A stretch of 64,000 nucleotides of DNA from an uncultured Oscillospiraceae bacterium (GTDB lineage Bacteria; Bacillota; Clostridia; Oscillospirales; Oscillospiraceae), in assembly GCA_947585425.1 (NCBI GenBank), contig CANPWZ010000005.1, forward strand, positions 40,506 to 104,505, read 5' to 3'. Positions 18,248 to 42,245 of this stretch are shown here, piece after piece. Every line of letters starts with the position of its first letter. The first letter of the stretch is position 1. Under the pieces are notes generated by a model that was not told the origin of the DNA, did not search any database, and saw only the letters and a program-made list of their open reading frames with translations. The translations under genes were made by a program, and so were the position numbers.

Positions 18248-18311
18248 TTTCACGCAGAAAAAAGAGTGTTTCACGCAAAAAGCGGCCTTTCTGAGTGTTT
18301 CCTCTTATAAT
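18248..18311 (+). promoter_or_regulatory. LytTR-type promoter 1: TTTCACGCA direct repeats and -10
   Basis: TTTCACGCA occurs at 18248-18256 and 18269-18277 (21-bp period, 12-bp spacer), exactly 28 bp before TATAAT at 18306-18311. There is no -35 box at the right distance, which fits activator-dependent transcription. The same layout recurs at 26407-26470. Two 9-bp direct repeats two helical turns apart are the usual binding site of AgrA/LytTR regulators; the regulator encoded at 25670 is the obvious candidate. Confidence 0.72.
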
Positions 18312-18336: not shown

Positions 18337-18411
18337 ATGGACATCAACAAGACGACCATTCTGGATATGTTTGAAGCGACCGGCTTTATCGCCATACTCG
18401 CCGTCGAATGA
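18337..18411 (+). CDS. 24-aa ORF: internally deleted STAS-domain remnant
   Basis: Too short for the ORF track. It has a strong GGAGGTG ribosome-binding site and its stop overlaps the next start (ATGA). The product begins MDINKT and ends TILDMFEATGFIAILAVE. The intact STAS protein at 32874 begins MNIIKT and ends TIREVFEVTGFIDILTIE. It therefore looks like a STAS gene that lost about 74 internal codons in frame but kept its start, ribosome-binding site and coupling. It may now serve only as a translated leader for the next gene. Confidence 0.6.
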   Translation: MDINKTTILDMFEATGFIAILAVE

Positions 18412-19070: not shown

Positions 19071-19081
19071 GCTATGGCGTC

Positions 19082-21551: not shown

Positions 21552-21577
21552 CCTGACCGCCGGAAAGGATGGAAACC

Positions 21578-25650: not shown

Positions 25651-25669
25651 GCGGAGCGAGGTGAGCGGA

Positions 25670-26392
25670 GTGCTGCGCATAGGGATATGTGATGACGATC
25701 AGGAGGACATCGATCAGATCGAAGGGCTGGCCACCCGCTTTGCGGAAGAACATCCCGAGACGCCTTTGCAGATACAGACGTACAGATCGCCGTATGACTT
25801 GCTGGACGATGTAGAAAAAACAGGCGGATTTGACCTGTATCTGCTGGACGTCGTTATGCCGCATATGACCGGCGTGACTTTGGCCAGACGGCTTCGGGAG
25901 AGAAAAGAGCGGGCGGAGATCCTGTTTTTGACCGTTTCCAAAGAATACGCGGTGGACGCTTTCAGCGTAAAGGCTTCCGGCTATCTGATCAAGCCGGTGG
26001 ACAGATCGGATTTTGACGACGCGGTATCTGACTGCATCCACCGGCTGTCCCCGGAAAACAGCTCGTCTCTCATGCCGAAATCAAAGAACGGTCTCCAGCG
26101 TGTGCCGGTCTGCGATCTGGTGTTCGTGGAGAGCTTTAATCACAAGCAGATCTGTACGTTATCTGACGGCTCCACGCTGGAGACGTCGGTGACCCTGGCA
26201 GAGCTGATGGACGCGTTGAAGGATCATCCCGCTTTTGTCCGGCCCCACAGAGCCTATATCATCAACATGGATTTTATCCGCAGGCTGACCGCCCATGAGC
26301 TGTTCCTGACAAACGGAAAACGGATCCCGGTCTCCCAGAGCGGATATGGGGAGCTGAAAAACGCGTATTTCGCCTATATGGCCCGCACTTAA
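25670..26392 (+). CDS. LytTR-family response regulator
   Basis: Receiver domain (about 1-120) with acidic pocket ICDDD, phospho-acceptor Asp in LYLLDVVMP and Lys in SGYLIKPV; LytTR DNA-binding domain (about 140-240) ending with the usual VRPHRAYIINMDFI and VSQSGYGELK pattern. I choose the GTG at 25670 (GAGG eight bases upstream); GTG at 25661 is possible. It closes operon 1, so it is itself behind LytTR promoter 1, giving positive feedback, and lies directly before promoter 2. The GHKL kinase at 16856 is the likely partner. Confidence 0.88.
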   Translation: MLRIGICDDDQEDIDQIEGLATRFAEEHPETPLQIQTYRSPYDLLDDVEKTGGFDLYLLDVVMPHMTGVTLARRLRERKERAEILFLTVSKEYAVDAFSVKASGYLIKPVDRSDFDDAVSDCIHRLSPENSSSLMPKSKNGLQRVPVCDLVFVESFNHKQICTLSDGSTLETSVTLAELMDALKDHPAFVRPHRAYIINMDFIRRLTAHELFLTNGKRIPVSQSGYGELKNAYFAYMART

Positions 26393-26406: not shown

Positions 26407-26470
26407 TTTCACGCAGAAAAAGCGCCGTTTCGCGAAAAAAACCGCTTTTTCTGCGTTTTTCTTTTATACT
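26407..26470 (+). promoter_or_regulatory. LytTR-type promoter 2: direct repeats and -10
   Basis: TTTCACGCA (26407-26415) and TTTCGCGAA (26428-26436) have the same 21-bp period as promoter 1 and the same 28 bp to the -10 (TATACT, 26465-26470). The 65-bp blocks of promoters 1 and 2 align almost base for base, so they are paralogous. It drives the lipoprotein/transporter/STAS operon. Confidence 0.72.
26411..26465 (+). terminator. Terminator of the regulator operon, overlapping promoter 2
   Basis: ACGCAGAAAAAGCG (26411-26424) and its perfect complement at 26443-26456 form a 14-bp stem followed by T-rich sequence. The stem overlaps the LytTR direct repeats, so the same bases end operon 1 and help start operon 2. 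Confidence 0.7.
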
Positions 26471-26534
26471 GATAAAAGGGGAAAAATGTTTGATCGGAGA
26501 GGTCCAATATTCACAGTAGAAGATGGTGAACGGT

Positions 26535-26888
26535 ATGAAATGGTTTCGAAAAAGAAAAGAAAAAAGGGCGCCGCTGAAATTCGGGGACGCCGCCCGCTTC
26601 AACTGGGCGCTGGACACGAACCGCGAGCTTCAGGACGGGATGGCGAAACTGGCGGAAGAATTCCCCAATCTGACGGAAGAGAGCTATACCCAGAGAGCAT
26701 TGGAACTTTATAGAAAAGCGGGCCTAGAATTGAGCGCGGAGGACTTAAAGATGCTGCTGGCGCTGCGCCAGGAGACCGACTGTATGCTTCTGCGAAAGAA
26801 AAGAGGGGATAAGAATGACGATGAAAATGCGGCGGATCCCCGCGCTGCTCCTGACGGCGCTGCTGCTGACGGGATTGACCGGATGTAA
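26535..26888 (+). CDS. Small hypothetical helical protein
   Basis: Not recognised. The ATG at 26535 (GGTGA six bases upstream) seems better placed than 26523. The product (117 aa) starts with a basic stretch (KWFRKRKEKR), then predicted helices (FNWALDTNRELQDGMAKLAEEFP, AEDLKMLLALRQETDCMLL). The last 25 residues overlap the signal peptide region of the next gene by 74 nt and look like read-through of an older, shorter end. First gene of operon 2. Confidence 0.5.
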   Translation: MKWFRKRKEKRAPLKFGDAARFNWALDTNRELQDGMAKLAEEFPNLTEESYTQRALELYRKAGLELSAEDLKMLLALRQETDCMLLRKKRGDKNDDENAADPRAAPDGAAADGIDRM

Positions 26889-27543
26889 AAAGACCGTTCC
26901 TGACACTGGGGCCCTGTGGAAGGCCGCTATGCAGGACGCGGTTTTCAGTGAGGATGAGGAGATCCACGAACTGGTGGAGCTGACAAAGGACGACAGCCGG
27001 GTCATCTGGGACGAGGCCGGAGAGCGGGTGCTGCTGCTGAGCTGGCATGACTATGACGACGCCTGCGCGCCCGGCGGATCGATCCGGACGGAATACGGGG
27101 ATGTGTGGGCCGTCTCCGCCGGGGAGATGCAGGCGTGGTATGAACAAAACCACAGCGGAGTGGAAAACTGGGAGCTGCGGTTCGCCCAACTCCTGGGCGT
27201 TCACGAGGACGAGGGATATACCCGCTTTACCGCCTTCTGGGTCTCTCCAGAGGATGTGATCCGCCCGGCCTATGTCACCGATGTGACAAAGCAAATGGAA
27301 AACGACTACGCCGCCGTGACGGATGAGGCGTATCGGGAATGGTTTGACGGCAACATCCTCTGGTCGTATTTTGAGAGCGATTATCCCTGGACGCGGCTCG
27401 GCTACACCTATGACTGGAGCGGCGGAGGATCGGAATACGGGCTGACCGAATTTTTGGTCGCCGACGGCGGCAAGGTCGAGATCGTCTTTACCTGTTCCAC
27501 CGCGGAATTTGTAGATCGGCTGGAAGAACAGGCGCAAAAATAA
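26815..27543 (+). CDS. Predicted lipoprotein, operon 2
   Basis: The N-terminus has a signal peptide with lipobox LTGC, so the protein should be anchored outside the cell membrane. The mature part (about 215 aa) is acidic and aromatic (LLSWHDYDDAC, VWAVSAGEMQAWYEQ, WSYFESDYPWTRLGYTYDW) and matches no family I know. The ATG at 26815 has AGAGGGG upstream. Its place at the head of a transporter operon suggests a surface ligand-binding or enzyme role, but nothing in the sequence proves it. Confidence 0.65.
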   Translation: MTMKMRRIPALLLTALLLTGLTGCKKTVPDTGALWKAAMQDAVFSEDEEIHELVELTKDDSRVIWDEAGERVLLLSWHDYDDACAPGGSIRTEYGDVWAVSAGEMQAWYEQNHSGVENWELRFAQLLGVHEDEGYTRFTAFWVSPEDVIRPAYVTDVTKQMENDYAAVTDEAYREWFDGNILWSYFESDYPWTRLGYTYDWSGGGSEYGLTEFLVADGGKVEIVFTCSTAEFVDRLEEQAQK

Positions 27544-27566
27544 CAAAAAATAGGGAGAAATGGACT

Positions 27567-27761
27567 ATGGAGACCAAATGCGACAACAAACGGGACTGCC
27601 CCTGCACCTACGACTGCCCGCGGCACGGCAAATGCTGCGCCTGCGTGGCCCATCACCGGGATCACGATGAAGGAGTGCCGGGCTGCTTCTTTTCCAAGGA
27701 GGCGGAGGCGACCTATGACCGAAGCATCGAAGCGCTGGCCAGGGACCACGGTATCATCTGA
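27567..27761 (+). CDS. Small cysteine-rich protein (DUF6485-like), 64 aa
   Basis: Eight cysteines and several histidines cluster in the first 45 residues (CDNKRDCPCTYDCPRHGKCCACVAHH...GCFF), a likely metal-binding site. The pattern resembles a small family of unknown function found in anaerobic Clostridia. A GGGAGA ribosome-binding site precedes it. Co-location in operon 2 suggests a redox or metal-related accessory role; this is inference. Confidence 0.65.
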   Translation: METKCDNKRDCPCTYDCPRHGKCCACVAHHRDHDEGVPGCFFSKEAEATYDRSIEALARDHGII

Positions 27762-27808: not shown

Positions 27809-29398
27809 ATGATAAGCATTCGCGATGAAGAATTTAGGCTGTCCGCGCCGACGATCGACGCGGTATCCGAGATCTGCGTGCAGACGCTTTCCGAGGCGGG
27901 GGCGGATAAAAAGGATATTATCCGCATCCGCCTGTCCCTGGAGGAGATCCTCGGCGTCTGGCTTGAATCGCTGGAGGGCGCTTTGGTCCATGTGGACTGC
28001 GGGCAGAAATTCGGACGGGCCTTTTTGAAAATCAGCGTAGACGGTCCGGCCCTGGACGCATGGGACAACGAGGCGTTGGTGTTCAGCAGCCATCTGCTCT
28101 CCCAGGCGGGGCTGTCGTTTACATACGCCTATAAGAACGGGAAAAACTGTCTGGTCTGCAACCCCAGGAAGAAAAAGTCGTCCATGGGCCAGCTCGCCGT
28201 GCTGATTGGCGCGGTCGTCCTGGCGGCATTCCTGGGCGCCGCCGCAAGGCGGTTCCCGGCCATACAGACAGCGGCCCTCTCGGTCACGGAACCCCTGTTC
28301 AATATGATCCTGGGCGCGCTCCGGGCGGTGTCCTCCCCGCTGGTGTTCCTGGCTGTCTGCTGCGGGATCGTGAGCATCGGCGATCTGGCGGTAGTGGGCA
28401 AAGTCGGCAAAAAACTGTTCCTGAGGATGTTCGCGGGGACGTTTATCCTGGGGACGATCATGGCGTTGGCGGGCAGCCTGCTGTTCCCTGTGGCCGCGGA
28501 GGCGGGCAGTCAGATCTCCGGCAATTTTTCGGCCATCTATCAGATGGTGCTGGATATTGTGCCCTCGGACGTCATCTCGCCGTTTATGAACGGCAACGCC
28601 CTGCAGCTCGTCTTTTTGGGCATCTGCGTGGGAGCCGCCCTTTTGATACTGGGCGAGCGGGTATCGACGGCCCAAAATACTCTGCTGCAGATGAACGACG
28701 CCGTACAGTTCCTGATGAGCGCGCTGGGAAAAGCCATTCCGCTGTTCGTGTTCCTGAGTCTGTTCAACCTTGTCATCTCCGACTTTGACAGCGGATTTTC
28801 CAGCCTGTTCAAGGTGTTTGCGCTGGCGATACCGGCGTGCTTGCTGGTGCCGCTGTTTTACGTCTTTTGGGCGGCGTTTCGGCTGAAGGTCAGCCCTGCC
28901 CTGCTGTTGCGGAAACTGCTGCCGACGTATCTCATCGCCCTGACGACGGCTTCCTCGGCCGCCGCCCTGGCGACGAATCTGGAGACATGCGTCAAGGAAC
29001 TGGGCATCCCGAAAAAGGTGGCGGATTTTTCTATCCCGCTGGGACAGGTGCTCTATAAGCCGGGCTTTGTGGCCGCCCTTTCTATCCTGGACCTGTGCAT
29101 GGCGGAGTCCTATGACGTCCCCATCACGCCGCTGTTCCTGGTCATGTCGGTTTTGACCATCGGGCTTCTTTCCATGGCGGTGCCGCCCATTCCCGGCGGA
29201 TCCCTTTCCGTGTTCACGGTCCTGTTTGCGCAGCTTGGTATCCCCAGTGAGGCCATCGCCCTGGCGGCCGCGGTCAACGCCATCATGGACTTCTTTATGA
29301 CGGCCGCCGGCGTGGCCTGCCTGCAGATCCAGGTGACGCTGGCGGCGGACGGCGTCGGGATGCTTGACAAAAACAAGCTGAAAAGGAGCGTGTCATGA
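27809..29398 (+). CDS. Dicarboxylate/amino-acid:cation symporter with N-terminal degenerate RsbW-like domain
   Basis: Residues 1-118 are soluble and follow the anti-sigma-kinase ATPase plan ([30 protein letters not shown] in place of the N-box, [12 protein letters not shown] in place of G1). The catalytic Asn is missing, so it is probably a binding module rather than a kinase. From about 125 on, the protein is a DAACS/GltP-type symporter with eight or so membrane helices, the serine-rich [12 protein letters not shown] motif and a PPIPGGS substrate-site stretch. It likely imports glutamate, aspartate or C4-dicarboxylates with Na+ or H+. Its stop overlaps the ABC importer start (ATGA). Confidence 0.82.
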
Positions 29399-32300
29399 TG
29401 GGAAACGATCGATTTTTCAGAAAGCATGATAAGAAGCTCTGCCTGGCCCTGGCGATCATCCTGATATGCCTGCTCCTTGGCGGCTGCGCGAAAAGCGCCG
29501 GGAACAGCGAGGCGATCACCGACATCCGCCAGCTGGACGGGCAGGCCATGGGCGTGTTGACCGGCTCCAGCTTTGACGTCATGACCGACGAACTGCTCGA
29601 GGGCACGGACAAGCAGTATTACGACCGGATCCCGGATCTGGCTCTGGCGGTGGAACAGGGAAAGATCGCCGGGTTTTTGATGGACGAACCCATCGCCCGC
29701 CTGCTTTGCCTGGAAAACCCGGCGGTGACCTATCTCCCCGATGTGCTGGTGGAGGAGAGCTACGCCGCCGCGTTTTCCAAGACCGACCGGGGCGCCGCGC
29801 TGCGGGACGAGTATGACGAATTTCTGGCGCAAATCAAGGCGGACGGCACCCTGGAGGAGATCGACGGCATCTGGCTGGGCGCCGACGAGAGCAAAAAAGT
29901 GGTGGAGGACTGGACAGCTTTCCCGGCGGACAACGGCGTTGTTCGGATGGCGGTGAAAACGGACTTGGCGCCCTTCTGCTATATCCTGAACGGCCGGATC
30001 GTCGGGTACGACATCGACATCATGGCCCGCTTCTGCAAGGCCTATGGCTACGGGCTGGAAGTGACCAGCGTGGAGCTCTCGTCTATTTTCACAGGCCTTG
30101 CCACCGGTACCTACGACGTATCGGCCGTCGGCATAACCGTGACGGAGGAACGGGCGGAAAGCGTGAATTTCGCCGAGCCCAATTACACCGGCGGCGTGGT
30201 GGCGGTGGTCGCAAACCGCGGTCAATTTGAGGCGCGCTTCAAAACGTTCCAGGATTTTGCGGGCACGACCGTGGGCGTTATGTCGGGCAGCATTTCGGAC
30301 GAGCTTGTCAGCGCTGTGGTCAGCGGCTGCGAATTCAAGTATTACGATGACGCTACCACTTCGTTTCTGGCGCTCCAGTCGGGCACGCTGGACGCCGTGG
30401 CGCACGATATGCCCGTCGCCCAGCTGGCGGTGGCCAGGCAGCCCGATCTGGCCATATTCCCCGAAACGGTGACGCCCGACATCTACGGCCTGGGCCTGCA
30501 AAAGGACAGCCCGCTGACGGATCAGATCAGCGCCATCATCGAACGATATACGGAGGACGGCACGCTGGACGCCCTGCGGGAGAAATGGCTGAGCGCCGAC
30601 GACAGCAAAAAGACCATCGATGTGGGGGAGTACGACGCGCCCAACGGCACCCTGCGGTATGCCCATGACTCTACGCTGGAGCCTATGAGCTATGTGGGCG
30701 GGAACGGCCAGTCCCTTGGATATGAGGTGGAGCTGGTCACGCTCATCGCCAAAGAGCTGGGGATGAAGCTGGAGATCACCCAAAGCACCTTCAGTTCGCT
30801 GATCCAGATGCTGAGCAGCGGCCGGGCGGACATCGTGTCCGGCGCCATGAGCATCACCGACGAGCGGAGGCAAAGCATCGATTTCCCCACCTCCCACTAT
30901 GTGGGCGGCATGGTGCTCGTCGTCCGGGGCGAAGATATTGGCATGGCCGTTGAGGCGGAAAAAACGGACTTCTGGACCGCGCTGAAAAATAGCTTTTATA
31001 AGAACTTCATCCAGGAAAACCGGTGGCAGATGATCCTCTCCGGCCTGGGCGTCACGTTTGTCATCTCGTTCTTTTCCGCCCTGTTCGGCACGGTGCTGGG
31101 CTTTGGCCTGTGCCTGCTGCGCCGCAGCCGCAACAGGATCGCCTCCGGCGTCGCGGCGGTCTTTGTCCGGCTGATCCAGGGGGTCCCCGTCCTGGTGCTG
31201 CTGATGGTGCTGTTCTACATCGTGTTCGCCGGCGCGAGACTGGACGGGATCGTCGTGGCCATCATCGGCTTCACCATCAACTTCGGCGTCTATGTCTCCG
31301 AAATGATCCGCACCGGCATCGACGCCGTGGATGTTGGCCAGTGGGAAGCGGCGTCCGCCATGGGCTTCGGACGGGTCAAGACCTTCACAAAGATCATCAT
31401 GCCCCAGGCGGCGCGGCATATCCTGCCGGTGTACAGGGGCGAATTTATCTCCATGGTGAAGATGACGTCTGTGGTGGGGTATATCGCGGTGGAGGACCTG
31501 ACCAAGGCGACCGACCTCATCCGCAGCCGGACCTTTGAGGCGTTTTTCCCGCTGATACTGACCGCGGTGCTGTACTTCCTGCTGGCATGGTGCCTGACCC
31601 TCCTGCTGGGGCTGGTGGAGCGGAAGATCGATCCCCGCCGCCGGCGCCGGGAGCCAAAGGGTGTCGACAGGAACACCTCCCTGCCGGAAGCCCCGGAGGG
31701 GCCGAAGCCCGCCCAGAGCGAAGGGGCGCTGATCACCATTTCCCATTTGAAAAAGGCATTCCCCAACGCGACGCCCCTGAAGGACGTCAACGCCGTCATC
31801 AACCAGGGGGACGTCATCTCCATCATCGGGCCCTCCGGCACGGGCAAAAGCACCCTGCTGCGCTGCATCAACCGGCTGGAAACGCCGACGGAAGGACAGA
31901 TCGAGGTGTTTGGCCAGCCGGTGACCGGCGTGAAGCCGGCGCAGCTTGGCGCCGTGCGCCGCCGCATGGGAATGGTGTTCCAGAGCTTTAATCTGTTCGC
32001 CCATCTGACGGTGATCGAAAACATCATGCTGGGGCCGGTAGAGCTGCTTGGCTGCACCCGGCAGCAGGCCTATGAACGGGGGATGCGTCTGCTGTCCAGC
32101 GTAGGTCTGGCGGAAAAGGCGCTCAACTATCCGGATGAGCTCTCCGGCGGTCAAAAACAGCGTGTCGCCATTGCCCGCACTCTGGGGATGCAGCCGGAGA
32201 TCGTGCTCTTTGACGAGCCGACCAGCGCGCTGGATCCCACCATGGTGGGAGAGGTGCTGGCGGTCATCCGCACCCTGGCCGGGCAGGGGCTGACCATGCT

Positions 32301-32814
32301 GATCGTGACCCATGAGATGAAGTTTGCCCGGGATGTATCCACGCGGGTATTTTACATGGACCAAGGCGTTGTTTACGAGGAGGGGACGCCGGAGCAGGTG
32401 TTCGATCACCCGAAGACCGACCGCTGCCGGGCGTTTGTCCACCGCCTGAAGACCCTCCATCTCGACATCGCCTCCAAGGAGTTCGACTTTATCGGCGCGG
32501 CGGCCGACATCGACCGCTTTGCCCGCAAGCAGCTGCTGAGCGCGCGGCAGTCCCTCAAGTACCAGCAGATCTTTGAAGAGCTGTGCGTGACGAGCATCCT
32601 GCCGGCCCTGCCGGACGACGGGTGCAGCCTGAGTTTTGACGCCCTTTGCAGTGAGGACGGAAACGAATGCGAAGCGGTCATCCGCTGGGATGGGGAAGCG
32701 TTCGATCCGCTGACGCAGGGAGACGAGCTGAGCGCGGCTCTGGCTGTCAGCCGGACCCGGAGCAGCAGGCACGCCTATGCCGACGGGGTCAACACGGTAA
32801 CGATTGTATTTTAA
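29395..32814 (+). CDS. Single-chain ABC amino-acid importer with C-terminal RsbW-like domain (1139 aa)
   Basis: One polypeptide holds a signal/lipobox segment (LGGC), substrate-binding lobes amounting to about two polar-amino-acid receptors in tandem (about 35-525), a HisM-type permease (about 540-760; [17 protein letters not shown] is the EAA-type loop), and a GlnQ-type ATPase (about 775-1020) with [17 protein letters not shown] and [11 protein letters not shown]. The final 115 residues repeat the theme of this locus: [14 protein letters not shown] and [11 protein letters not shown] resemble the N-box and G1 of RsbW kinases, but the Asn is absent. It probably imports a polar amino acid under control of this tail. 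Confidence 0.87.
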
Positions 32815-32873: not shown

Positions 32874-33170
32874 ATGAACATCATCAAAACAGCAGAAGGA
32901 ACCACTCTGAATCTCGCCCTGGAGGGACGGCTGGACACCACTACCGCCCCGCAGCTGGAAGCCGAACTCAAAGATTCTGTGGACGGCGTTACAGAACTGA
33001 ATATGGATTTTGAGAAGCTGGAATACCTGTCCTCCGCCGGGCTGCGGGTGATCCTGGCCGCGCAGAAGGTGATGAACAGGCAGGGGAAAATGGTGATCCG
33101 GCATGTCAACGAGACCATACGGGAAGTATTTGAGGTGACCGGCTTTATCGACATCCTCACCATTGAGTAA
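32874..33170 (+). CDS. STAS-domain anti-sigma-factor-antagonist-like protein
   Basis: A 98-aa stand-alone STAS protein of the SpoIIAA/RsbV type. The phosphorylation loop (YLSSAGLRV, Ser53/Ser54) is intact, as are the N-terminal strand (LNLALEGRLDTTTAP) and C-terminal helix. AGGAGG precedes the ATG. In known systems an RsbW-type kinase phosphorylates this serine and a SpoIIE/RsbU phosphatase removes it, switching partners. Here the kinase and phosphatase are probably the two domains of the 21578 protein, and the partners may be the RsbW-like domains on the three transporters. Confidence 0.88.
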   Translation: MNIIKTAEGTTLNLALEGRLDTTTAPQLEAELKDSVDGVTELNMDFEKLEYLSSAGLRVILAAQKVMNRQGKMVIRHVNETIREVFEVTGFIDILTIE

Positions 33171-33188: not shown

Positions 33189-33818
33189 ATGATGAAATCG
33201 AATGAGATCGCGTTATCCAACAGTTTGTCCTGCGCCGTGGACGCGCTCCAGGAAGTAGAGCGGGCCTCCGGGCAGGCAGGGCTGGACCGCGAACAGGCCA
33301 ATATCATGCGGCTGCTGACGGAGGAAATGATCTCCATGACCATCGACATCCTGCGGGACTGCACGGGGTCTCTCTGGATGGAGTGGGAGGGAACGGCCTG
33401 CGAACTGCATCTGACCGCGGTGGCGCCTATTGAGGAAAAGGCAAAAGCCGCCTTTATCGAGGCGTCCAAGGCGAAAGTAAACGCACCCGTCAAGGGCCTG
33501 AAAAATAAGATCAGCGCCCTGCTTGCCTGGATGCTCAGCGGCGGGGACAATCCGAAGCTGTACGCCTATATGAGCGCCGGGTTCATCGGCGATATGCCTG
33601 TGGCCCTGTCTTCCATGAGCATGGCTCCGACCTGGTCGCTGGCGGCTTATACGGAGAGCAGCGAAAAGGAACAAAAGGACGCGGAGCTGGAGGGCGTGGA
33701 GAAATCCATCCTGATCGGCCTGGCGGACGATGTGGTAGTATCCGTGAAAAGCCACTGGGTAGAGATGGTGGTCAAGAAAGCGTTTGCCGCGCCCCTTCAG
33801 ACCGCTGCTGGAAACTAA
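33189..33818 (+). CDS. Degenerate RsbW-like protein, 209 aa
   Basis: The first 80 residues follow the anti-sigma-kinase order (LDREQANIMRLLTEEMISMTIDIL in N-box position, then strands GSLWMEWEGTACELHLTAV) but lack the ATP-binding Asn and glycine boxes. The remaining 120 residues include two moderately hydrophobic stretches (ISALLAWML, FIGDMPVALSSMSMAPTWSL) of unknown role. It follows the STAS gene by 18 bp and is the last intact gene before the serine-recombinase element; cstA would follow 21 bp later if the element were removed. Confidence 0.6.
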   Translation: MMKSNEIALSNSLSCAVDALQEVERASGQAGLDREQANIMRLLTEEMISMTIDILRDCTGSLWMEWEGTACELHLTAVAPIEEKAKAAFIEASKAKVNAPVKGLKNKISALLAWMLSGGDNPKLYAYMSAGFIGDMPVALSSMSMAPTWSLAAYTESSEKEQKDAELEGVEKSILIGLADDVVVSVKSHWVEMVVKKAFAAPLQTAAGN

Positions 33819-33838
33819 AAGCAAAGGAAAGAAAAACC

Positions 33839-33842
33839 AATG
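33839..33842. other. attL core (AATG) of the serine-recombinase element
   Basis: AATG here matches AATG at 40800-40803. GCTGATAAAG at 33849-33858 is mirrored by CTTTATCAGC at 40782-40791; both arms are equally far (nine bases) from the central AA dinucleotide, as expected for the two halves of a large-serine-recombinase attP site. Confidence 0.75.
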
Positions 33843-33867
33843 GGCGCGGCTGATAAAGAATGTTTTA

Positions 33868-35541
33868 TCATCCAACAGCAACAGCATGGTACTTCGGTAT
33901 CATGCTGTTGTTGTTTTTACTGGATCTGCTAAACTCCGGGGAAAAATCAATTTCACCGATGAAATTATAGTGTATGTCAATTCGCTGAACACGGTGGCCA
34001 GTGGATTTGTCCGGGGCATGGACGACGATTTTCTCCACAAACTCCCGCAGGAGCGCCGGCGTCAATTCCGTGGGTTCTGTGTACTTCCTGACGATCTTGA
34101 GAAAACTTTGAAGATTCACCGCCTGTTCCTCGGCGCTCTCAACGGTGGGCCGAAGTTCTGAAACAGTCTGCTTTAATTCGGCCTGCTCCCGTTCATAGTC
34201 CCCGGACATTTTCGCAAAGCGTTCCTCGCTCAGCTTTCCCAGCACATGGTCCTCATACAGCCTTCGGATAATGGCGTCCAGTTCATTGATCCGGTGTTCA
34301 GCTTTCTCTAATTTGCGCTTAGCCTGCTCCCGTTCCGCACTCTGCGCCGCCAGCTTGTTTGTCATCACCAGACGCACAAATTCGTCCTCGTCCTCCTGGG
34401 CGTAGACCACCACCCTTTGCAGGTTTTGAAGTACCAGCTGTTCCAGCACCACAGCCCGGATATAGTGTGCGCTGCATTGTTTTCTTGTGCGGTAGCTGGA
34501 ACAGGTATAACACTCCTGCTCATGGGTCCAGGAGGTAGTCCGGCAATGGTACAACCGTGCGCCGCAGTCGGCGCAGTAAGCCAGCCCGGAGAACATCCCC
34601 ATCTCTCCCATCTTAGTGGGGCGGCGGCGCTGTTCCCTGGCTTTCTGTACTATTTCCCATGTGTCCTTATCAATGATCGCTTCGTGGGTGTTTTCAAAGA
34701 TCGCCCATTTGTCCGGCGGATTTGCAATACGCTTCTTGCTCTTGTAGGACAGTTTCGTGCCCTTAAAGTTGGTGGTGCGGCCCAAATATGCGTCCTGTCC
34801 CAAAATATAGACTACGCTGCTATCCTTCCACCCGCAGGGATCGTCCGGGTGGTAATTCCGAGTCCTGCCTGTTCGCCGGAACTCTATCGTTCCCGGCGTG
34901 GGTATGCCTCGTTCTTTCAGCATACGGGCGATTTTACTGGGGCCATTTCCTTCAACACATAGTTGGAAAATCAGCTTTACCACGGGGGCCGTTTCCTCGT
35001 CGATGATCAGATGGCCGTCCGTGCCCTTTATATAGCCATATGGGGCGCTTGTAGCGAGACGCTGGCCGGACATCCCCTTATTGCGGAATACCGCCCGAAT
35101 TTTCTTGCTGGTGTCCTTGGCGTACCACTCGTTGATGATGTTCCGAAAAGGAGTGAAGTCGCTGCCCATCTGATCGTCGCTGTCCACCCCGTCATTGACG
35201 GCGATGAAGCGTACCCCCATCTCCGGGAAACGTACCTCTGTATAGAGGCCCACCTCCAGATAGTTCCGCCCAAACCGGGACATATCCTTGACGATCACCA
35301 TGCTTACAAGTCCGCTTTCAATGTCCGCCAGCATTTCCTGAAAACCGGGGCGGCGGAAGTTTGTGCCGGAGAACCCGTCGTCTTTATAGATTTTGTAATC
35401 GGTTATTTCCCGGTCTTTGCAATACTTGGCGAGAATATCGATCTGATGGGCGATGCTGTTGCTGTCCCCCTCGTTTTCATCGTCGCGGGAGAGGCGGACG
35501 TAGAGCGCCGCCCATTTTTCATTTGTCAACTGCCTGTTCAT
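33868..35541 (-). CDS. Large serine recombinase (TndX-like)
   Basis: 557 aa, with an N-terminal resolvase domain (ALYVRLSRDDE with the catalytic Ser, KDDGFSGTNFRRPGFQ, VIVKDMSRFGRN), a recombinase domain (about 170-290), a zinc ribbon (CADCGARL...CYTCSSYRTRKQC) and a coiled-coil region. Such enzymes integrate and excise elements between short att sites through a central dinucleotide. The gene lies 26 bp inside the left end of the element. AGGAGGG-type ribosome binding precedes the start. It looks intact, so excision may still be possible. Confidence 0.93.
   Translation of the reverse strand: MNRQLTNEKWAALYVRLSRDDENEGDSNSIAHQIDILAKYCKDREITDYKIYKDDGFSGTNFRRPGFQEMLADIESGLVSMVIVKDMSRFGRNYLEVGLYTEVRFPEMGVRFIAVNDGVDSDDQMGSDFTPFRNIINEWYAKDTSKKIRAVFRNKGMSGQRLATSAPYGYIKGTDGHLIIDEETAPVVKLIFQLCVEGNGPSKIARMLKERGIPTPGTIEFRRTGRTRNYHPDDPCGWKDSSVVYILGQDAYLGRTTNFKGTKLSYKSKKRIANPPDKWAIFENTHEAIIDKDTWEIVQKAREQRRRPTKMGEMGMFSGLAYCADCGARLYHCRTTSWTHEQECYTCSSYRTRKQCSAHYIRAVVLEQLVLQNLQRVVVYAQEDEDEFVRLVMTNKLAAQSAEREQAKRKLEKAEHRINELDAIIRRLYEDHVLGKLSEERFAKMSGDYEREQAELKQTVSELRPTVESAEEQAVNLQSFLKIVRKYTEPTELTPALLREFVEKIVVHAPDKSTGHRVQRIDIHYNFIGEIDFSPEFSRSSKNNNSMIPKYHAVAVG
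33872..33924. terminator. Long hairpin at the recombinase 3' end
   Basis: CAACAGCAACAGCATG and its near-complement CATGCTGTTGTTGTT surround a TTCG loop, in the last codons of the recombinase gene; a T run follows on the plus strand, so it could stop transcripts arriving from operon 2. Confidence 0.55.
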
Positions 35542-35631
35542 TTCACCCTCCTATCCGGCAGTTACCGTCTCTTGCCTTGTGACACTTAAATTATATCAAT
35601 AACCGCATAAAGCGTCAAATTTCTGCACAAA

Positions 35632-35766
35632 TCAGGCGCGGTTTCTTTTTGCTTCTTTGTCAAGCAAACCTCTGATTTTTTCGGAGACGGTAACGCCCTG
35701 GGCGGCGAAGAACCCAGAAACATAATAAACTGTGTTGCCAACCTTGTTCTCTGTCTTTAGCGTTGG
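35632..35766 (-). pseudogene. tnpW-like transposon protein remnant
   Basis: In the gap before the recombinase start, the minus strand encodes KVGNTVYYVSGFF and VSEKIRGLLDKE up to a stop at 35632, matching the pattern of the small TnpW proteins of Clostridia transposons. There is no start codon; a TAG lies in frame just upstream (35767-35769). It is therefore a 5'-truncated fragment. The rest of 35542-35801 shows nothing else recognisable. Confidence 0.5.
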
Positions 35767-35801
35767 CTACTTCTCACTTTGAGTACCAGCCATATGATTA
35801 G

Positions 35802-36653
35802 CTACGGCAAAATAATATCGTTCCTGATGGGCAACTTTTCATCCAGTGCTTTTTTCAAGGCTAAGTCCCAGAAGTCCCATTCATGTGCATAGCCCGGAAC
35901 TTCGTCATAGTCTACATCGTATCCATATTCCGTGAGAAGATCACGGGTGCCAAAGGCAAAATAGCGGATGAAGTCATTTCCCCCACACGTCATATACAGT
36001 TTGGGTAACGCCTTTCCTTCTTCAACATTTTTCTTTGCCGTGATAAACAAATCGTCATTCGGATCTGCGAACTTGACACCTAAACTTTCGAGCAGGGATG
36101 CATCTACTGCAAAGTCTGTCCTTCCATCATTTCCTGCGCTTTGCGAAACGACAGACATGATATTGGTAGCGTCCATGCCACCCCCGGACATGATCAGAGC
36201 AGCGGCGCATTTGTCCGCACCATAAATTGCCCACTTTGTAGCGGCTATTGAACCCATTGAAAGCCCACCAACAAAGGTATCTTCACGCCGATCAGAAATT
36301 GGGAACATTGATGTGCAGACCTTGGGTAGCTCATAGAAAATGTAGTCCCAATATTTCGCGGGCCAAGGAAGGGTATTGTCCGGCTGATTGACATAACACG
36401 AGTTGTAGCCCGCAGGCATTACAACGGCGATTTTATGCTCATCAGCATACCTGAGAATATTAGAGAAATTCAGATAGTCAGAATCATCTCCGGTGCCACC
36501 GTGAAACAGGTAGAGGACTTGGAACTTGGAACCCGGTACATAGCTTTCTGCTTTCCCGTTTGGCGCATCAAATAGCGTCCAGGAAGGGAGGATCATGGTC
36601 ACGTTTGTCTGCTGCATCAATGCCTGCGATAGAAAATTGAATCTAACTAACAT
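35802..36653 (-). CDS. Alpha/beta-hydrolase fold esterase (EstA/esterase D-like)
   Basis: The catalytic triad is visible: Ser in GGLSMGS, Asp in CGGNDF and His in GYAHEWDFW. The oxyanion region is YLFHGGTGDD. The 283-aa length suits the family of tributyrin, feruloyl or acetyl esterases and S-formylglutathione hydrolases. There is no signal peptide, so it is cytoplasmic. It is paired with the GPH sugar transporter 36 bp upstream on the same strand, which suggests deacylation of an imported esterified sugar or glycoside. Its GC content is lower than that of the host genes, indicating horizontal origin. Confidence 0.82.
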   Translation of the reverse strand: MLVRFNFLSQALMQQTNVTMILPSWTLFDAPNGKAESYVPGSKFQVLYLFHGGTGDDSDYLNFSNILRYADEHKIAVVMPAGYNSCYVNQPDNTLPWPAKYWDYIFYELPKVCTSMFPISDRREDTFVGGLSMGSIAATKWAIYGADKCAAALIMSGGGMDATNIMSVVSQSAGNDGRTDFAVDASLLESLGVKFADPNDDLFITAKKNVEEGKALPKLYMTCGGNDFIRYFAFGTRDLLTEYGYDVDYDEVPGYAHEWDFWDLALKKALDEKLPIRNDIILP

Positions 36654-36689
36654 TTTTACCCCTCATTTCTTTTTTGTGTATGTTTGTCA

Positions 36690-38087
36690 TTATCGTTCCA
36701 ATTCTGCCGCTTCGCCAAATTTTGCTTTCAGAAGTTTCTCAGCCTCATCTTTAGAGATTTTATTCGTGTTGTATTGAGCCATAATCTGCACATCCGCAGT
36801 CCTTAACTTGTAAAACTGCAACGTTATTACGGCTAAAATCATTCCAACAGCAGGACCAAGAGTGTAAAGAATCCATACTCCACCTGCGACAGACGGAGGC
36901 TGAATGGCACCCTCACCAGTTACGAATCCAAAACCCGCCAGTATTAGCATCGCAATCGGGCCACTGATTGAACCAACTAATTTAGAGAAAAATGTTTGTA
37001 CGGATGCAGCCATTCCCTCAGCACGTTCGCCCGTATGATATGTACCGTACTCAATGCAGTCAGGTGTGAACGTAAACAGGAGGATATTATTTGCGCCTGT
37101 GAAGAAACCCTGGATAAACATCATGATGAAGAACACGGTCAAATTAGAATACCCGATAAAGAACAACACGATGCCAATTAGGGCTGCGATAATGTTGCTG
37201 GTTAAATAGACGGCGAACTTGTCAACTTTCTTTATGATGATTGGGATCGCAATACCGGAAATCAGCAAAGGAAGTAGCGACAAAAGGCTTATGATCGAAG
37301 CAAGATCCTGATTTCCCAAACAAATACGTGCAAAGTAGATTTGGATGTACTGTGTGAAATTCAGCAGGCCGCTCATAAGAAGTGCGCCATAAAAAATAAT
37401 CAGGTATTTGTTTTTTATGACGTAATTCAGCATTTGCTTCAGTGTGATGGATTTTTCACGCCTTACAATATGACGCTCTTTCCCGTTTACAAGTAACGGA
37501 AACATTGCAATACAAGCCACAATCGTGAAAATAATTCCCACGGCAAGCCATCCAAACCGGGCTTGAAGTATAGGTATTGACACACTTGAAACTGTGACAC
37601 CAATCATGGCAAAAAACCGGCCTATTGCCAGGAGTTGATTGCGCTCTCTCACATCGTCAGTCATAGATGTGGGCAGTACAAAAATGGGAACGTCACATAG
37701 CGTATATGACATACTCCATGCGACATATCCGACTGTCGCCCAAACCACTTTTACTACGGGACTCCCTTGATTCGGCAGTAAGAAAAAGAAAACGGAACTG
37801 ACGAAAATCAAGGGAAAAGAAATCCGTATCCAAGGCAAAAATCGTCCGGATTTGAAATGCACTTTGTCGATAATTACTCCAAGAATAGGATCGTTTACCG
37901 CATCCCAGATTTTAGTGAACAGCATAATTGCGGCTATGGATGTAAGCGTTATGCCGACATCCGTAAAGAACGTCTGCATATTGATGGCGACCAAGCCATA
38001 GAAAATGTTTTGTCCGAGGAAATAGACCCAATAGCTTATTCGTTCTTTTTTTTGCAGAGCTGTACTTTCCTGTTTTGCACTTTCCAT
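36690..38087 (-). CDS. GPH-family (glycoside-pentoside-hexuronide) MFS transporter
   Basis: Twelve membrane segments with GPH signatures: YFLGQNIFYGLV at the first helix, FTKIWDAVNDPILGVIIDK in loop 2-3 and YTLCDVPIF in the middle. Length 465 aa is typical. These symporters import sugars or glycosides with Na+ or H+. AGGAGG precedes the start. It forms an operon with the esterase and is divergent from an AraC regulator, so the three genes make a self-contained sugar-uptake cassette carried by the mobile element. Confidence 0.88.
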   Translation of the reverse strand: MESAKQESTALQKKERISYWVYFLGQNIFYGLVAINMQTFFTDVGITLTSIAAIMLFTKIWDAVNDPILGVIIDKVHFKSGRFLPWIRISFPLIFVSSVFFFLLPNQGSPVVKVVWATVGYVAWSMSYTLCDVPIFVLPTSMTDDVRERNQLLAIGRFFAMIGVTVSSVSIPILQARFGWLAVGIIFTIVACIAMFPLLVNGKERHIVRREKSITLKQMLNYVIKNKYLIIFYGALLMSGLLNFTQYIQIYFARICLGNQDLASIISLLSLLPLLISGIAIPIIIKKVDKFAVYLTSNIIAALIGIVLFFIGYSNLTVFFIMMFIQGFFTGANNILLFTFTPDCIEYGTYHTGERAEGMAASVQTFFSKLVGSISGPIAMLILAGFGFVTGEGAIQPPSVAGGVWILYTLGPAVGMILAVITLQFYKLRTADVQIMAQYNTNKISKDEAEKLLKAKFGEAAELER

Positions 38088-38149
38088 AATACATTCCTCC
38101 TAAAAAGTCTTGTAAAATATTCACCCTAATGCTATCATAGTCTATAAGA

Positions 38150-38190
38150 TGTATCATTTTATGGCTTCATTTGAATAATTGTATCGTTTT
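38150..38190. promoter_or_regulatory. Direct repeats in the GPH/AraC divergent promoter region
   Basis: TGTATCATTTT (38150-38160) and TGTATCGTTTT (38180-38190) are direct repeats 30 bp apart in the AT-rich spacer between the transporter and the AraC gene; candidate operators for the AraC regulator. Confidence 0.45.
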
Positions 38191-38225
38191 CATTATATTC
38201 TTCACTTTTGGGGGAGGAATCTGTT

Positions 38226-39254
38226 ATGAATTTTGATGTAAGAGATGAATCAATAGAGATAATGAACGTCAAGGGAAGAATGAAGAATAAAAAACTATCC
38301 GTGGAAAAACTCCCTGATGTAATTCTAACTGAGCAACCCATTGAGCTTCAATTTGTTTCATTCAGCAGGGATGGATTCGGTCACAGAAGCTCCTTTGGAC
38401 ATCACTGGCAGCTTGAGTTCGATTTTCATGTTGACACAGCATCTTCTTCAATTTTAAGTAAGCCTCACAGGCATGACTATTGGGAAATAATCATAGCTGA
38501 CACAGGCACTTTGGAAATGCAAATCGAATCATCTCTATATCATTTGAATAGAGGAGATATTTGTATATTGAACCGTGCCACCCGTCATGCGGAACATTTC
38601 CAGTCGGGGCAGACCGTTATCTATGTGGTATTGTCAATGGAATACATTGCATCTTGGCCAAAGGATACGAATATTGCATTTGGAAAACCAATATCACAGT
38701 TGTTTGAAAATGGCATGAACCTACCATATTATCAAAATAAAGACTACATTATTGCGGGGCCAGCAAAAGAAAAAGCATATAGTTCTGTTTTAGAAATTAT
38801 CCAGGCAATGAAAGAAGAATTCTTGAATAATTTGCCCGGAAACAGATACTTGATGAAGGGCCTTGTCTACAGACTTATTAACACAGTTACCGTATCAAAA
38901 GCATACACGGTCGATTATTGTGATATGAGGGCTGAGGATAAATTTGGTCTGGCAGATTCGGCAAAAAGAATCATAGACAAGAACAAGCGCCGCACCACTT
39001 TGTTTGAACTTGAAAGAGCGTTACAATACTCTGGCCCATATATCAATCGGTTATTTAAGGAAAAATATCATTGTTCCATAGCTGAATATAATCAAAGCAC
39101 GTGTCTCCAATACATGGCCAACCAGTTGTTGACAACAAGGAAAACAGTAGAAGAAATCTGCCATAAAATAGGCTATACTAATAGAACGAATTTATATAGA
39201 CTGTTTAGGGAAAAGTATGGTTGCTCTCCGAGGGAATTCAGAAAGAATAGGTAG
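38226..39254 (+). CDS. AraC-family transcriptional regulator
   Basis: The ATG at 38226 follows GGGGAGG at eight bases; the TTG at 38208 used in the track is less likely. The N-terminal cupin-like sensor (about 80-150: KPHRHDYWEIIIADTG, LNRGDICILNRATRH) is followed by a C-terminal double helix-turn-helix (about 245-342), with FELERALQYSGPYINRLFKEKY and VEEICHKIGYTNRTNLYRLFREKYGCSPREFR. It most likely activates the divergent GPH transporter/esterase operon in response to a sugar. Low GC like its cargo neighbours. Confidence 0.87.
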   Translation: MNFDVRDESIEIMNVKGRMKNKKLSVEKLPDVILTEQPIELQFVSFSRDGFGHRSSFGHHWQLEFDFHVDTASSSILSKPHRHDYWEIIIADTGTLEMQIESSLYHLNRGDICILNRATRHAEHFQSGQTVIYVVLSMEYIASWPKDTNIAFGKPISQLFENGMNLPYYQNKDYIIAGPAKEKAYSSVLEIIQAMKEEFLNNLPGNRYLMKGLVYRLINTVTVSKAYTVDYCDMRAEDKFGLADSAKRIIDKNKRRTTLFELERALQYSGPYINRLFKEKYHCSIAEYNQSTCLQYMANQLLTTRKTVEEICHKIGYTNRTNLYRLFREKYGCSPREFRKNR

Positions 39255-39332
39255 CATTGTTTTTTGTCTTATCTGCTGACAGAACAGAGAACAATCAATC
39301 TTAGTGGCTATTCACTCAATAGCTCAATCAAA

Positions 39333-39393
39333 ATACACGTCCCACGGTGGGATTCTGTTTTCGACACAAAATGCGTCTCACCGTGGGATTTAT
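39333..39393. repeat. Short palindromes TCCCACGGTGGGA and CTCACCGTGGGA
   Basis: In the 355-bp gap between the AraC gene and mobC, palindromic motifs related to the one at 39949-39967 recur (share the CTCAC/GTGGG core). They may mark rearranged copies of one mobilisation-region sequence. Confidence 0.4.
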
Positions 39394-39492
39394 TTTGCGT
39401 GAGCCGGGTCGTCTCTCCAGCATGGCGAAAGCCGGCCCCTGCCGACTTTGCGGGTATGTTCCCCTTAGTGACCACCAACGCCGCGGGGCGTT

Positions 39493-39565
39493 GCCTGTCA
39501 AGGTCCGCCCGGCAAAGCCGGGCGGCTTGCGACGATTGCGAAAGCAATCGCCGGCCTTGACGGGC
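39493..39565. other. Three-way-junction DNA/RNA structure, candidate origin-of-transfer region
   Basis: An outer stem (GTCAAGG with CCTTGAC) encloses two perfect hairpins: CCGCCCGGC-AAA-GCCGGGCGG (39505-39525) and CGATTGC-GAAA-GCAATCG (39533-39550). No protein-like frame covers it. It lies directly downstream of mobC, where the relaxase gene would be expected; oriT or a single-strand-origin role is inference. Confidence 0.45.
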
Positions 39566-39609
39566 GGCACCCTGCGGCGTATCATCCACCCCAGGGAACG
39601 CCCGCCCCT

Positions 39610-39918
39610 TCACAGGGCGTCCTTGACCATACGATGTACCTGGTTGACCAGCTTGGTGGCCTCCTGTATATCAGTCACAGAAACGCTTTTTTGCAGGTTG
39701 GCCCAGTAAGCGATTTGGTTGATATTCCTGCCGATGGCGGAAAGTTCCCGGAGTAAGGCGGCGTAGGTTTCGGGCGGCTTTGGGCGCAGTTGAACGCCGG
39801 ATGCGAGCATACGGATAAACGGGTCGATCCCCAGACCGGCCTTGTCCGCCTCCGCCTTTAGATGGCGGTACTCCTGCTCATTCATCCACACGCTCACATG
39901 GCGGTTTCGCTTTCTCAT
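39610..39918 (-). CDS. mobC: MobC-like relaxosome accessory protein
   Basis: The ATG at 39918 (AAAGGAG upstream) begins MRKRNRHVSVWMNEQEY, a ribbon-helix-helix start typical of MobC. The family motif around IGRNINQIAYWAN lies near residue 65. The 102-aa length is normal. MobC helps the relaxase open DNA at oriT. The relaxase that normally follows is missing; a structured non-coding stretch and the cargo genes are found instead. Confidence 0.8.
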   Translation of the reverse strand: MRKRNRHVSVWMNEQEYRHLKAEADKAGLGIDPFIRMLASGVQLRPKPPETYAALLRELSAIGRNINQIAYWANLQKSVSVTDIQEATKLVNQVHRMVKDAL

Positions 39919-39948
39919 ACTGGCTCCTTTCGTTGTCGCATAAAAAAT

Positions 39949-39967
39949 GCGTCTCACGGTGAGACGC
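39949..39967. repeat. Palindrome GCGTCTCAC-G-GTGAGACGC upstream of mobC
   Basis: A perfect 9-bp inverted repeat with a single central base, about 30 bp before the mobC start. Candidate MobC binding site or part of oriT. Confidence 0.5.
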
Positions 39968-39999
39968 GAAACGGGTCGGGGTCTTAGGGGCGGATGCCC

Positions 40000-40653
40000 C
40001 TAACAAGGGTCATTTGTGCTACCAAATGACATACTTGCTCGGACAGCGCCGCCTATGGCGTCGCTGTGCGGAGGTGGAGTGTCCTGTTGACAGCGTGGGG
40101 GGCGTTGGTAGTGTTCTGAAGTCGGCCCAGGTTGTTTAGGATTGATAGATTGATTGATATAGCTGAGATCAGTATAGTTCTTATCAGTATAATTTCCGTC
40201 CCCTTTCGGGAAGTGCTGACATTTGAAGATGGGAAGTCCAGAGGTCGGGTTTTCCGACTTCTGGAGGTCGGTTTGTTCATCGCCTTGGAGGTCCTGTTCT
40301 TCGACACTGATAAAATCCTTGACATAGATTTTTGCCGGTTTGCCCTGACCCTGCTTGACCCGCTCAATCAGGGCGTATTTCTCCAACTCGGCCAGCAGGC
40401 GGACGGCCTTATTGTGTCCGCAAGCCAGGGCTTCCTGGATGTTATCCAGAGTGAAATAGATAAAGATGCCGTTCCTTTCGCCCAGCCAGCCATTTTGCAA
40501 AGACAGCCCCATGCGATCCAGCATGAGGCCATAGAGCAGCTTGGCGTCGGTGGACATCCCCCTGAACCGTTCATCTGTCATCAGAGCGCGGGGGATACGG
40601 AAGAAACTGAATTGCTCAGCCTCGTCGCCATGAAAGTAGCTGTTTTCTGACAT
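40000..40653 (-). CDS. repA: RepA_N-type replication initiator of transposon/plasmid origin
   Basis: The ATG at 40653 has AGGAGGT at the right distance. The N-terminal winged-helix RepA_N domain is clear (FFRIPRALMTDERFRGMSTDAKLLYGLMLDRM, then NIQEALACGHNKAVRLLAELEKYALI). The C-terminal half is low-complexity and polar, as in Tn1549-type elements, but the protein (217 aa) may be shortened. It suggests that the element can or could replicate as a circle after excision. Confidence 0.8.
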   Translation of the reverse strand: MSENSYFHGDEAEQFSFFRIPRALMTDERFRGMSTDAKLLYGLMLDRMGLSLQNGWLGERNGIFIYFTLDNIQEALACGHNKAVRLLAELEKYALIERVKQGQGKPAKIYVKDFISVEEQDLQGDEQTDLQKSENPTSGLPIFKCQHFPKGDGNYTDKNYTDLSYINQSINPKQPGPTSEHYQRPPRCQQDTPPPHSDAIGGAVRASMSFGSTNDPC

Positions 40654-40681
40654 TGGTTTACCTCCTGTGCATAAGAAAAGA

Positions 40682-40701
40682 CCACGATTGTCAAATCGTG
40701 G
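40682..40701. terminator. Hairpin near the right end of the element
   Basis: CCACGATT-GTCA-AATCGTGG, followed on the plus strand by CCTTTTCT. Lies upstream of repA and about 100 bp inside the right end. Confidence 0.45.
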
Positions 40702-40799
40702 CCTTTTCTGTCTGTTTGATTTTGTCACTTAGGCTCGCTTTTTGGGTAACTGCCTCATAAAAAGTTGCATTTTGTCTTGTGCTTTATCAGCAGCCACCT

Positions 40800-40803
40800 A
40801 ATG
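40800..40803. other. attR core (AATG), overlapping the cstA start codon
   Basis: See attL at 33839. Here AATG contains the ATG of cstA. Joining the left flank (ending AAAGGAAAGAAAAACC) to AATG and the cstA codons recreates a gene start with a ribosome-binding site. Confidence 0.75.
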
Positions 40804-42222
40804 ATAACATTTTGTTGCGCGATCCTCCTTCTCATCGGAGGCTATTTCCTGTATGGGAAACTGGTTGAAAAAGTATTCCGTCCTGACGACAGGCAGACGC
40901 CGGCCGTTGAGCATCCGGACGGCGTGGACTATGTGCCGATGAAGACCTGGCGGGTGTTTTTGATCCAGCTGTTGAACATCGCGGGCACCGGCCCGATCTT
41001 TGGACCGCTGATGGGCGCGGTATTCGGCCCGGTGGTATTTTTGTGGATCGTATTCGGTTCCATTCTGGGCGGCGCTGTACACGATTACATGAGCGGCATG
41101 ATCTCGGTGCGGATGAACGGCGCGTCGGTGTCGGAGATCGTAGGGAAGTATCTGGGAAAAGCGGCCAAACAGGTGATGCGGGTATTCTCCGTGGTACTGC
41201 TGATCCTGGTCGGGGCGGTGTTCACCACGAGCCCCGCGGCGCTGATCGCCCGGCTCACCCCGGACTGGATGAACGCCACGTTCTGGGTGGTGGTGATCCT
41301 GGCGTATTACCTGCTGGCTACCCTGCTGCCCATTGATAAGGTCATCGGAAAACTGTACCCCGTGTTCGGCGGGGTGCTGGTGCTGATGGCGGTGGGCATC
41401 ATCGGCGGCCTGATCGCAGGCGGCTACCATCTGCCGGAGATCTCCTTTGTGAACCAGCACCCGGACGGGCGGCCCGTCTGGCCGTTTATGTTCGTCACAG
41501 TGGCCTGCGGGGCGGTGTCGGGCTTCCATGCCACACAGTCGCCGATGATGGCCCGGTGCCTGAAAGCCGAAAAGGACGGCCGTAAGGTGTTTTACGGCGC
41601 TATGATCGCGGAAAGCGTCATCGCCCTGATATGGGCGGCGGCCGGCGTGGCGTTTTACGGCGCGACCGGCGGCCTGCAGCAGGCGCTGGCGGATCTGGGG
41701 CAGTCGGGGGTCGTGTACGACATCTCGGTCAAGCTGTTGGGCGCCGTTGGCGGCGCGCTGGCCATCATCGGCGTGGTGGCCTGCCCGGTCTCCTCCGGCG
41801 ACACGGCGTTCCGCAGCGCGCGGCTGACCATCGCCGACTGGTTCCACATCGACCAGTCCAAACTGCCGAAGCGTCTGGCCATCACCCTGCCGCTGCTGGG
41901 GGTGGGGGCGCTGCTGACACAGCTGAACTTCGATGTCATCTGGCGGTATTTTTCCTGGAGCAATCAGACGCTGGCCATGATCACCCTGTGGGCGGCGGCC
42001 ATGTACCTGGCCCGGAACGCGGAGAAATGGTGGTATTCGCTGATGTGCGCGGTCCCGGCCGCCTTTATGTCCGGCGTATCCTCTACCTATATCCTGATGG
42101 CCGAGGAGGGCTTCCGGCTCTCCCAGAGCATCGCCTATCCCGTTGGCGCAGTGTTCGCTTTGGCCTGTACAGCGCTCTACGCGGTAAAGGCCGGCGGAAA
42201 ACGGCATGAGAAAACCCTGTGA
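40801..42222 (+). CDS. cstA: CstA-family carbon-starvation transporter
   Basis: About 14 membrane segments, 473 aa. Family signatures include GGYFLYGKLVEKVF, NIAGTGPIFGPLMGAVFG and VACGAVSGFHATQSPMMARC. CstA/BtsT proteins import pyruvate or peptides. The track start (TTG 40765) lies in element DNA; the native start is the ATG at 40801, precisely at the right att core. The element has cut the gene from its ribosome-binding site, so present expression is doubtful. Before insertion it followed the degenerate RsbW gene by 21 bp and belonged to the LytTR-controlled operon 2. Confidence 0.9.
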   Translation: MITFCCAILLLIGGYFLYGKLVEKVFRPDDRQTPAVEHPDGVDYVPMKTWRVFLIQLLNIAGTGPIFGPLMGAVFGPVVFLWIVFGSILGGAVHDYMSGMISVRMNGASVSEIVGKYLGKAAKQVMRVFSVVLLILVGAVFTTSPAALIARLTPDWMNATFWVVVILAYYLLATLLPIDKVIGKLYPVFGGVLVLMAVGIIGGLIAGGYHLPEISFVNQHPDGRPVWPFMFVTVACGAVSGFHATQSPMMARCLKAEKDGRKVFYGAMIAESVIALIWAAAGVAFYGATGGLQQALADLGQSGVVYDISVKLLGAVGGALAIIGVVACPVSSGDTAFRSARLTIADWFHIDQSKLPKRLAITLPLLGVGALLTQLNFDVIWRYFSWSNQTLAMITLWAAAMYLARNAEKWWYSLMCAVPAAFMSGVSSTYILMAEEGFRLSQSIAYPVGAVFALACTALYAVKAGGKRHEKTL

Positions 42223-42242
42223 CCGTTGAGGTCACAGGGTTT
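42212..42242 (+). terminator. cstA terminator
   Basis: AAACCCTGTGACC pairs perfectly with GGTCACAGGGTTT around a GTTGA loop; it includes the stop codon. Confidence 0.8.
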
Positions 42243-42245
42243 CGA

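Follow-up and report, generated by a model that had tools for sequence, protein, structure and literature searches.

The question raised by this locus is whether cstA, which encodes a short CstA-family transporter and now stands directly behind a mobile element, was once the final gene of a LytTR-controlled transporter operon, and to what signal such an operon would respond. Our analysis covered a window of 64,000 nucleotides from an uncultured Oscillospiraceae bacterium, on which an earlier note had made two proposals: that cstA closed the operon before the element arrived, and that the associated GHKL/LytTR pair senses pyruvate or a similar overflow metabolite. On synteny, the CstA tree and promoter anatomy, the structural part of this claim is right. 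We propose, with a probability of about 0.78, that cstA was the 3′-terminal member of a transporter operon read from a LytTR-type promoter and was cut off from it by the element at its start codon.

The element and the cstA junction

The junction contains the following features, given in window coordinates.

33819–33839, forward strand: 21-bp spacer with the Shine-Dalgarno-like sequence AAAGGAAAG (33823–33831)
33840–40799, no strand assigned: inserted mobile element of ~7 kb, with AATG at both edges
33868–35541, reverse strand: large serine recombinase of the element (PF00239, PF07508, PF13408, PF14287)
40682–40701, forward strand: terminator-like hairpin within the element, pointing towards cstA
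40801–42222, forward strand: cstA, short CstA-family transporter, an intact 473-codon ORF (PF02554)
42210–42243, forward strand: strong hairpin at the end of cstA (−29.3 kcal/mol, z −5.4)

The element separates the RsbW-like gene (stop codon TAA at 33816–33818) from cstA, and copies of AATG lie at its edges, at 33839–33842 and 40800–40803. Since this tetranucleotide is common to both edges, excision leaves TAA, 21 bp and then ATG, which is the spacing that had been predicted for the uninterrupted locus. The right edge is supported independently, because alignment to a related RepA end, from a different genome (G078), runs up to 40799 and breaks down beyond it. Searches of the RepA end against 177 genomes, and of the whole element against plasmids, found no empty site in the same lineage, only this distant related end. 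Resolvase, recombinase and zinc-ribbon domains are combined in a single integrase, identifying a large-serine-recombinase element, with the recombinase gene at the left end, a RepA_N gene at the right and genes for an esterase, an MFS_2 sugar transporter, an AraC regulator and NikA/MobC besides. Its closest parallel is the group of Tn4451/TnpX-like mobilisable elements, which likewise have a serine recombinase with recombinase and zinc-ribbon domains, a mobilisation protein and a Rep protein; the window element differs in its esterase, sugar transporter and AraC cargo and in its insertion at a start codon.

The spacer on the left contains a purine-rich ribosome-binding site and lacks a promoter; the sequence now upstream of cstA has no ribosome-binding site. 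It is probable that AAAGGAAAG was the original ribosome-binding site of cstA, and the insertion is likely to have deprived the gene of both this site and the LytTR promoter, so that cstA is probably poorly expressed in the source genome. A possible homology between the rebuilt ribosome-binding site and that of the nearest relative, G024, was rejected as non-significant against shuffles (p about 0.08). The encoded protein belongs to the CstA family (TC 2.A.114), with a PF02554 score of 195.6 bits against a curated cut-off of 27 (E 2e-57), and its gene is the only PF02554 gene in the source genome. A sequence search of solved structures returned none similar to it.

The upstream cluster and its LytTR-type promoters

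Upstream of the element lie a kinase, a regulator and the transporter operon, all on the forward strand.

16856–18130, forward strand: GHKL sensor kinase, not of the LytS type (HATPase_c_5, PF14501, 43.6 bits)
18248–18311, forward strand: LytTR-type promoter 1, direct repeats TTTCACGCA-12-TTTCACGCA, −10 box TATAAT at 18306
25655–26392, forward strand: LytTR response regulator (PF00072 and PF04397)
26407–26470, forward strand: LytTR-type promoter 2, of the transporter operon, TTTCACGCA-12-TTTCGCGAA, −10 box TATACT at 26465
26523–27761, forward strand: small protein, lipoprotein and 63-residue cysteine-rich protein at the operon head, conserved in relatives
27809–29398, forward strand: DAACS (SDF) transporter with an N-terminal RsbW-like domain (PF00375; profile comparison 97.6%)
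29395–32814, forward strand: amino-acid ABC transporter fusion with a C-terminal RsbW-like domain (PF00497, PF00528, PF00005; profile comparison 94.3%)
32874–33170, forward strand: STAS-domain anti-sigma-antagonist-type protein (PF01740)
33189–33818, forward strand: RsbW-like gene

The kinase has a weak second match, to SPOB_a (PF14689), which at 25 bits falls below its cut-off, and the regulator combines receiver and LytTR domains. Between the lipoprotein gene and the rebuilt cstA, counted from 27543, no gap exceeds 59 bp, and no strong internal promoter or terminator was seen in the window operon. SpoIIE phosphatase, STAS and HATPase_c_2 domains occur together within one cluster, which is the domain set of a partner-switching module. 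Fused RsbW-like ATPase domains are found in a MATE transporter (19782–21551) as well as in the SDF and ABC proteins, and the SpoIIE phosphatase (21569–23953) has a QueT-like membrane part.

The gene directly ahead of the element had been called a degenerate RsbW gene, a description that is plausible but weakly shown: a low-confidence structural model (pLDDT 48) has as its top matches only SpoIIAB/RsbW-type anti-sigma kinases, but the ORF has no Pfam match, HATPase_c_2 included, and comparison of its family with HATPase profiles gave weak values. In five close homologues (L040 to L044) the gene continues into a VOC/glyoxalase domain, which is missing from the window copy. The RsbW-like gene is 76–79% identical across these five loci, and as their genomes are variously labelled Dorea, Mediterraneibacter and Oscillospiraceae, this suggests horizontal transfer of the cluster. 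Behind the first promoter, at 18338–18412, lies a truncated STAS remnant, MDINKTTILDMFEATGFIAILAVE, whose counterpart in L206, the upstream portion of the L040 contig, is a full STAS gene (1692–1985). Two conserved ORFs with no Pfam or NCBIfam match follow at 18408–19798 and are also adjacent in L041 and L206 (73–77% identity).

The repeats at 18248 and 26407 precede two sub-operons and have the same anatomy: two 9-bp direct repeats with 12 bp between them and a −10 box 28–29 bp downstream of the second. LytTR sites in general consist of two repeats of 9–11 nt with a spacer of 11–13 nt and have no common consensus (PMC4847170), and they often lie ~10 bp ahead of the −35 box (PMC6193735); the window sites conform to the former rule, being paired repeats of this size and spacing upstream of a target promoter. 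Promoters of this kind recur at homologous places, two in the window, two in L206 and one in L042, with the −10 box at 28–29 nt in all five, and 20 simulations yielded none. A consensus-free scan of 16 loci, for any 9-mer repeated with a period of 20–22 and followed by a −10 box, found 9 distinct sites where 0.3 were expected. One of these, with a different half-site, precedes a cstA-containing gene run in G676, and another, in G356, precedes GGDEF-cstA beside a GHKL-LytTR pair. At L163 (6841–11693) a GHKL-LytTR pair and a GGDEF-cstA pair point away from each other, and a LytTR-type repeat promoter (8893) lies in the interval. The TTTCACGCA repeat itself, sought in all other cluster loci, did not occur beyond chance outside the window, L040/L206 and L042, and none of the L161, L164 and L165 operons showed LytTR repeats upstream.

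These observations support a start of the operon at a LytTR-type promoter, and with it the earlier proposal of LytTR control, through the repeat promoters at 18248 and 26407 and those in L206 and L042; binding by the regulator we infer. The repeats might instead serve another regulator, or the operon might be driven constitutively with the LytTR gene a mere neighbour, and the lack of repeats in three cstA-containing clusters would fit this. We consider it improbable, although the best of the alternatives, since repeat length, the 12-bp spacing and the position relative to the −10 box match the LytTR class and the repeats precede these operons much more often than chance would give. If the preferred reading is correct, class anatomy suggests that the LytTR regulator (25655) probably receives its phosphate from the GHKL kinase (16856), and that the regulator would bind the two 9-bp repeats, 21 bp apart, and activate both sub-operons. 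Transcription from the promoter at 26407 (−10 at 26465) would have run through the SDF, ABC, STAS and RsbW-like genes to cstA, so that CstA would have been co-expressed with other transporters, several of them carrying fused RsbW-like domains, whose activity the SpoIIE and STAS proteins could tune by partner switching. A mobilisable serine-recombinase element would then have entered at the start codon of cstA.

cstA in element-free relatives

CstA homologues were collected from about 780 genomes of the order and class and joined to a separate set of homologues of the RsbW-like gene, and the flanks of both were labelled by tblastn. At five loci cstA lies within the cluster, on the same strand and with no element: L040 (85% CstA identity to the window), L160 (84%), L161 (81%), L164 (72%) and L165 (73%). 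The gene orders are lipoprotein-DUF-ABC-CPBP-STAS-LDH-RsbW::VOC-SpoIIE-CstA in L040, permease-small-DUF-ABC-CstA-binding protein-5′-nucleotidase in L160, DUF-DAACS-ABC-STAS-VOC-SpoIIE-CstA in L161, where no gap on the way from the cysteine-rich gene to cstA exceeds 41 bp, and SpoIIE-ABC-permease-5′-nucleotidase-CstA in both L164 and L165. Except in L160, cstA begins about 20–36 bp behind the SpoIIE gene (L040, L161) or the 5′-nucleotidase gene (L164, L165). More distant CstA proteins (65–68%) are encoded beside SpoIIE and STAS in L175, L176 and L178, and in L042, L043 and L044 no cstA was seen within the flanks examined; L041 ends too early to count. On these comparisons cstA is a recurrent but optional member of the cluster, as some clusters have it and the flanks of L042 to L044 show none. 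Its membership, as claimed, is supported at five element-free loci. Its terminal position holds in L161, L164 and L165, and the hairpin after cstA in the window fits with this, but one or two further genes follow cstA in L040 and L160.

Among the 58 CstA proteins placed on a tree, the cluster label changes 4 times, compared with 8.6 expected from shuffles, and 0/500 shuffles were as low. The window clade has 9 members, 6 of them clustered, with moderate support (SH-aLRT 92).

The nearest relative, G024, of the same genus and with a CstA 97% identical, has a different arrangement. It shares cstA and the downstream tRNA-Ser region with the window at 95.7% identity and diverges exactly at the cstA start; upstream lie acetyltransferase and fucose genes, and cstA stands alone behind a perfect 12/12 sigma-70 promoter (TTGACA-17-TATAAT). 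No SpoIIE cluster was found in the G024 assembly, which is 78% complete. At L268 (13519–16662), in the same genus, STAS and SpoIIE::HATPase genes immediately precede this tRNA-Ser pair and leuA, with no cstA, which makes the tRNA-Ser site a locus that varies between relatives. It could be argued from G024 and from this variability that cstA is a free-standing gene read from a promoter of its own at the tRNA-Ser site, that a fortuitous rearrangement placed it behind the RsbW-like gene, and that in this lineage it was never part of a LytTR operon. We regard this as unlikely: in five further genomes, drawn from several families, close homologues occupy the same cluster, the rebuilt 21-bp spacer is operon-like in having a ribosome-binding site and no promoter, and the fucose genes that precede cstA in G024 sit elsewhere in the window genome. 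Moreover, the tree nests G024 among cluster members, and its stand-alone state therefore looks derived. The earlier note would have abandoned operon membership had cstA lain apart behind its own promoter in all element-free relatives; this is the case in the closest of them, G024, and not in the five clustered ones.

Pyruvate and the proposed regulatory circuit

The E. coli BtsS/BtsR-BtsT system resembles the window locus in its LytTR response regulator, its paired direct-repeat sites and its CstA-family target. A likeness to this system had led to the proposal of pyruvate sensing, with cstA encoding the pyruvate transporter of a GHKL/LytTR sensor. BtsT and CstA of E. coli do carry pyruvate (PMC7730263), and a gene of the L-lactate-dehydrogenase type, slightly under its curated cut-off and absent from the window, lies between STAS and RsbW::VOC in three sibling operons (L040, 9046–10014; L042, 9052–10014; L043, 9046–10014), which is only a hint toward pyruvate. 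BtsS, however, binds pyruvate through a membrane domain that contains 5TMR_LYT (PMC10653868), whereas the window kinase is a GHKL protein (HATPase_c_5) with neither 5TMR_LYT (PF07694) nor PF06580, and its CstA is a short form within a multi-transporter operon. Against the NCBIfam model for the CstA pyruvate/proton symporter equivalog (NF011590), window CstA scores 93.6 bits, over its N-terminal part only, compared with a cut-off of 1188, and the family has been linked to peptide use as well (PMC7730263). A genuine LytS-LytTR-CstA unit in the same order looks different. The closest BtsSR-BtsT look-alike found here, L168 (1648–5727, genome G338), likewise has a LytTR regulator gene directly ahead of cstA, but its kinase is a true LytS with 5TMR_LYT and His_kinase domains, its CstA is 63% identical to that of the window, and no SpoIIE, STAS or RsbW genes were found nearby; its recovery shows that the domain test can detect such a set. 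Since amino-acid, purine and nucleotide genes occur in these operons as often as lactate dehydrogenase, and given the missing 5TMR_LYT and the low symporter score, pyruvate sensing is not favoured and is the least likely of the readings that we weighed.

The SpoIIE phosphatase of the PP2C type, the STAS protein and the RsbW-type ATPase domains recall RsbU/RsbV/RsbW and SpoIIE/SpoIIAA/SpoIIAB, but in the window the RsbW-like domains form fusions with MATE, SDF and ABC transporters and do not stand beside a sigma factor. We speculate, with low confidence, that a modular transporter operon of gut Clostridia may be under the joint command of a GHKL/LytTR switch and a SpoIIE/STAS/RsbW partner-switching circuit. 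Many of its members would carry RsbW-like domains, with CstA as a recurrent unfused one, and the operon would balance what the cell exports against what it imports, be it amino acids, purines or overflow products such as lactate or pyruvate, with control acting on transporter activity and not on a sigma factor.

The locus offers a clean natural case in which a mobile element severs the last gene of an operon at its start codon, and the promoter element described here provides a clear, testable mark for the LytTR regulon. If our preferred reading holds, the link between CstA-family transporters and LytTR regulators is not confined to the known gamma-proteobacterial BtsSR system and can involve a different class of kinase, and LytTR control of this family would extend to a GHKL-kinase system within an operon of transporters that bear fused RsbW-like domains.
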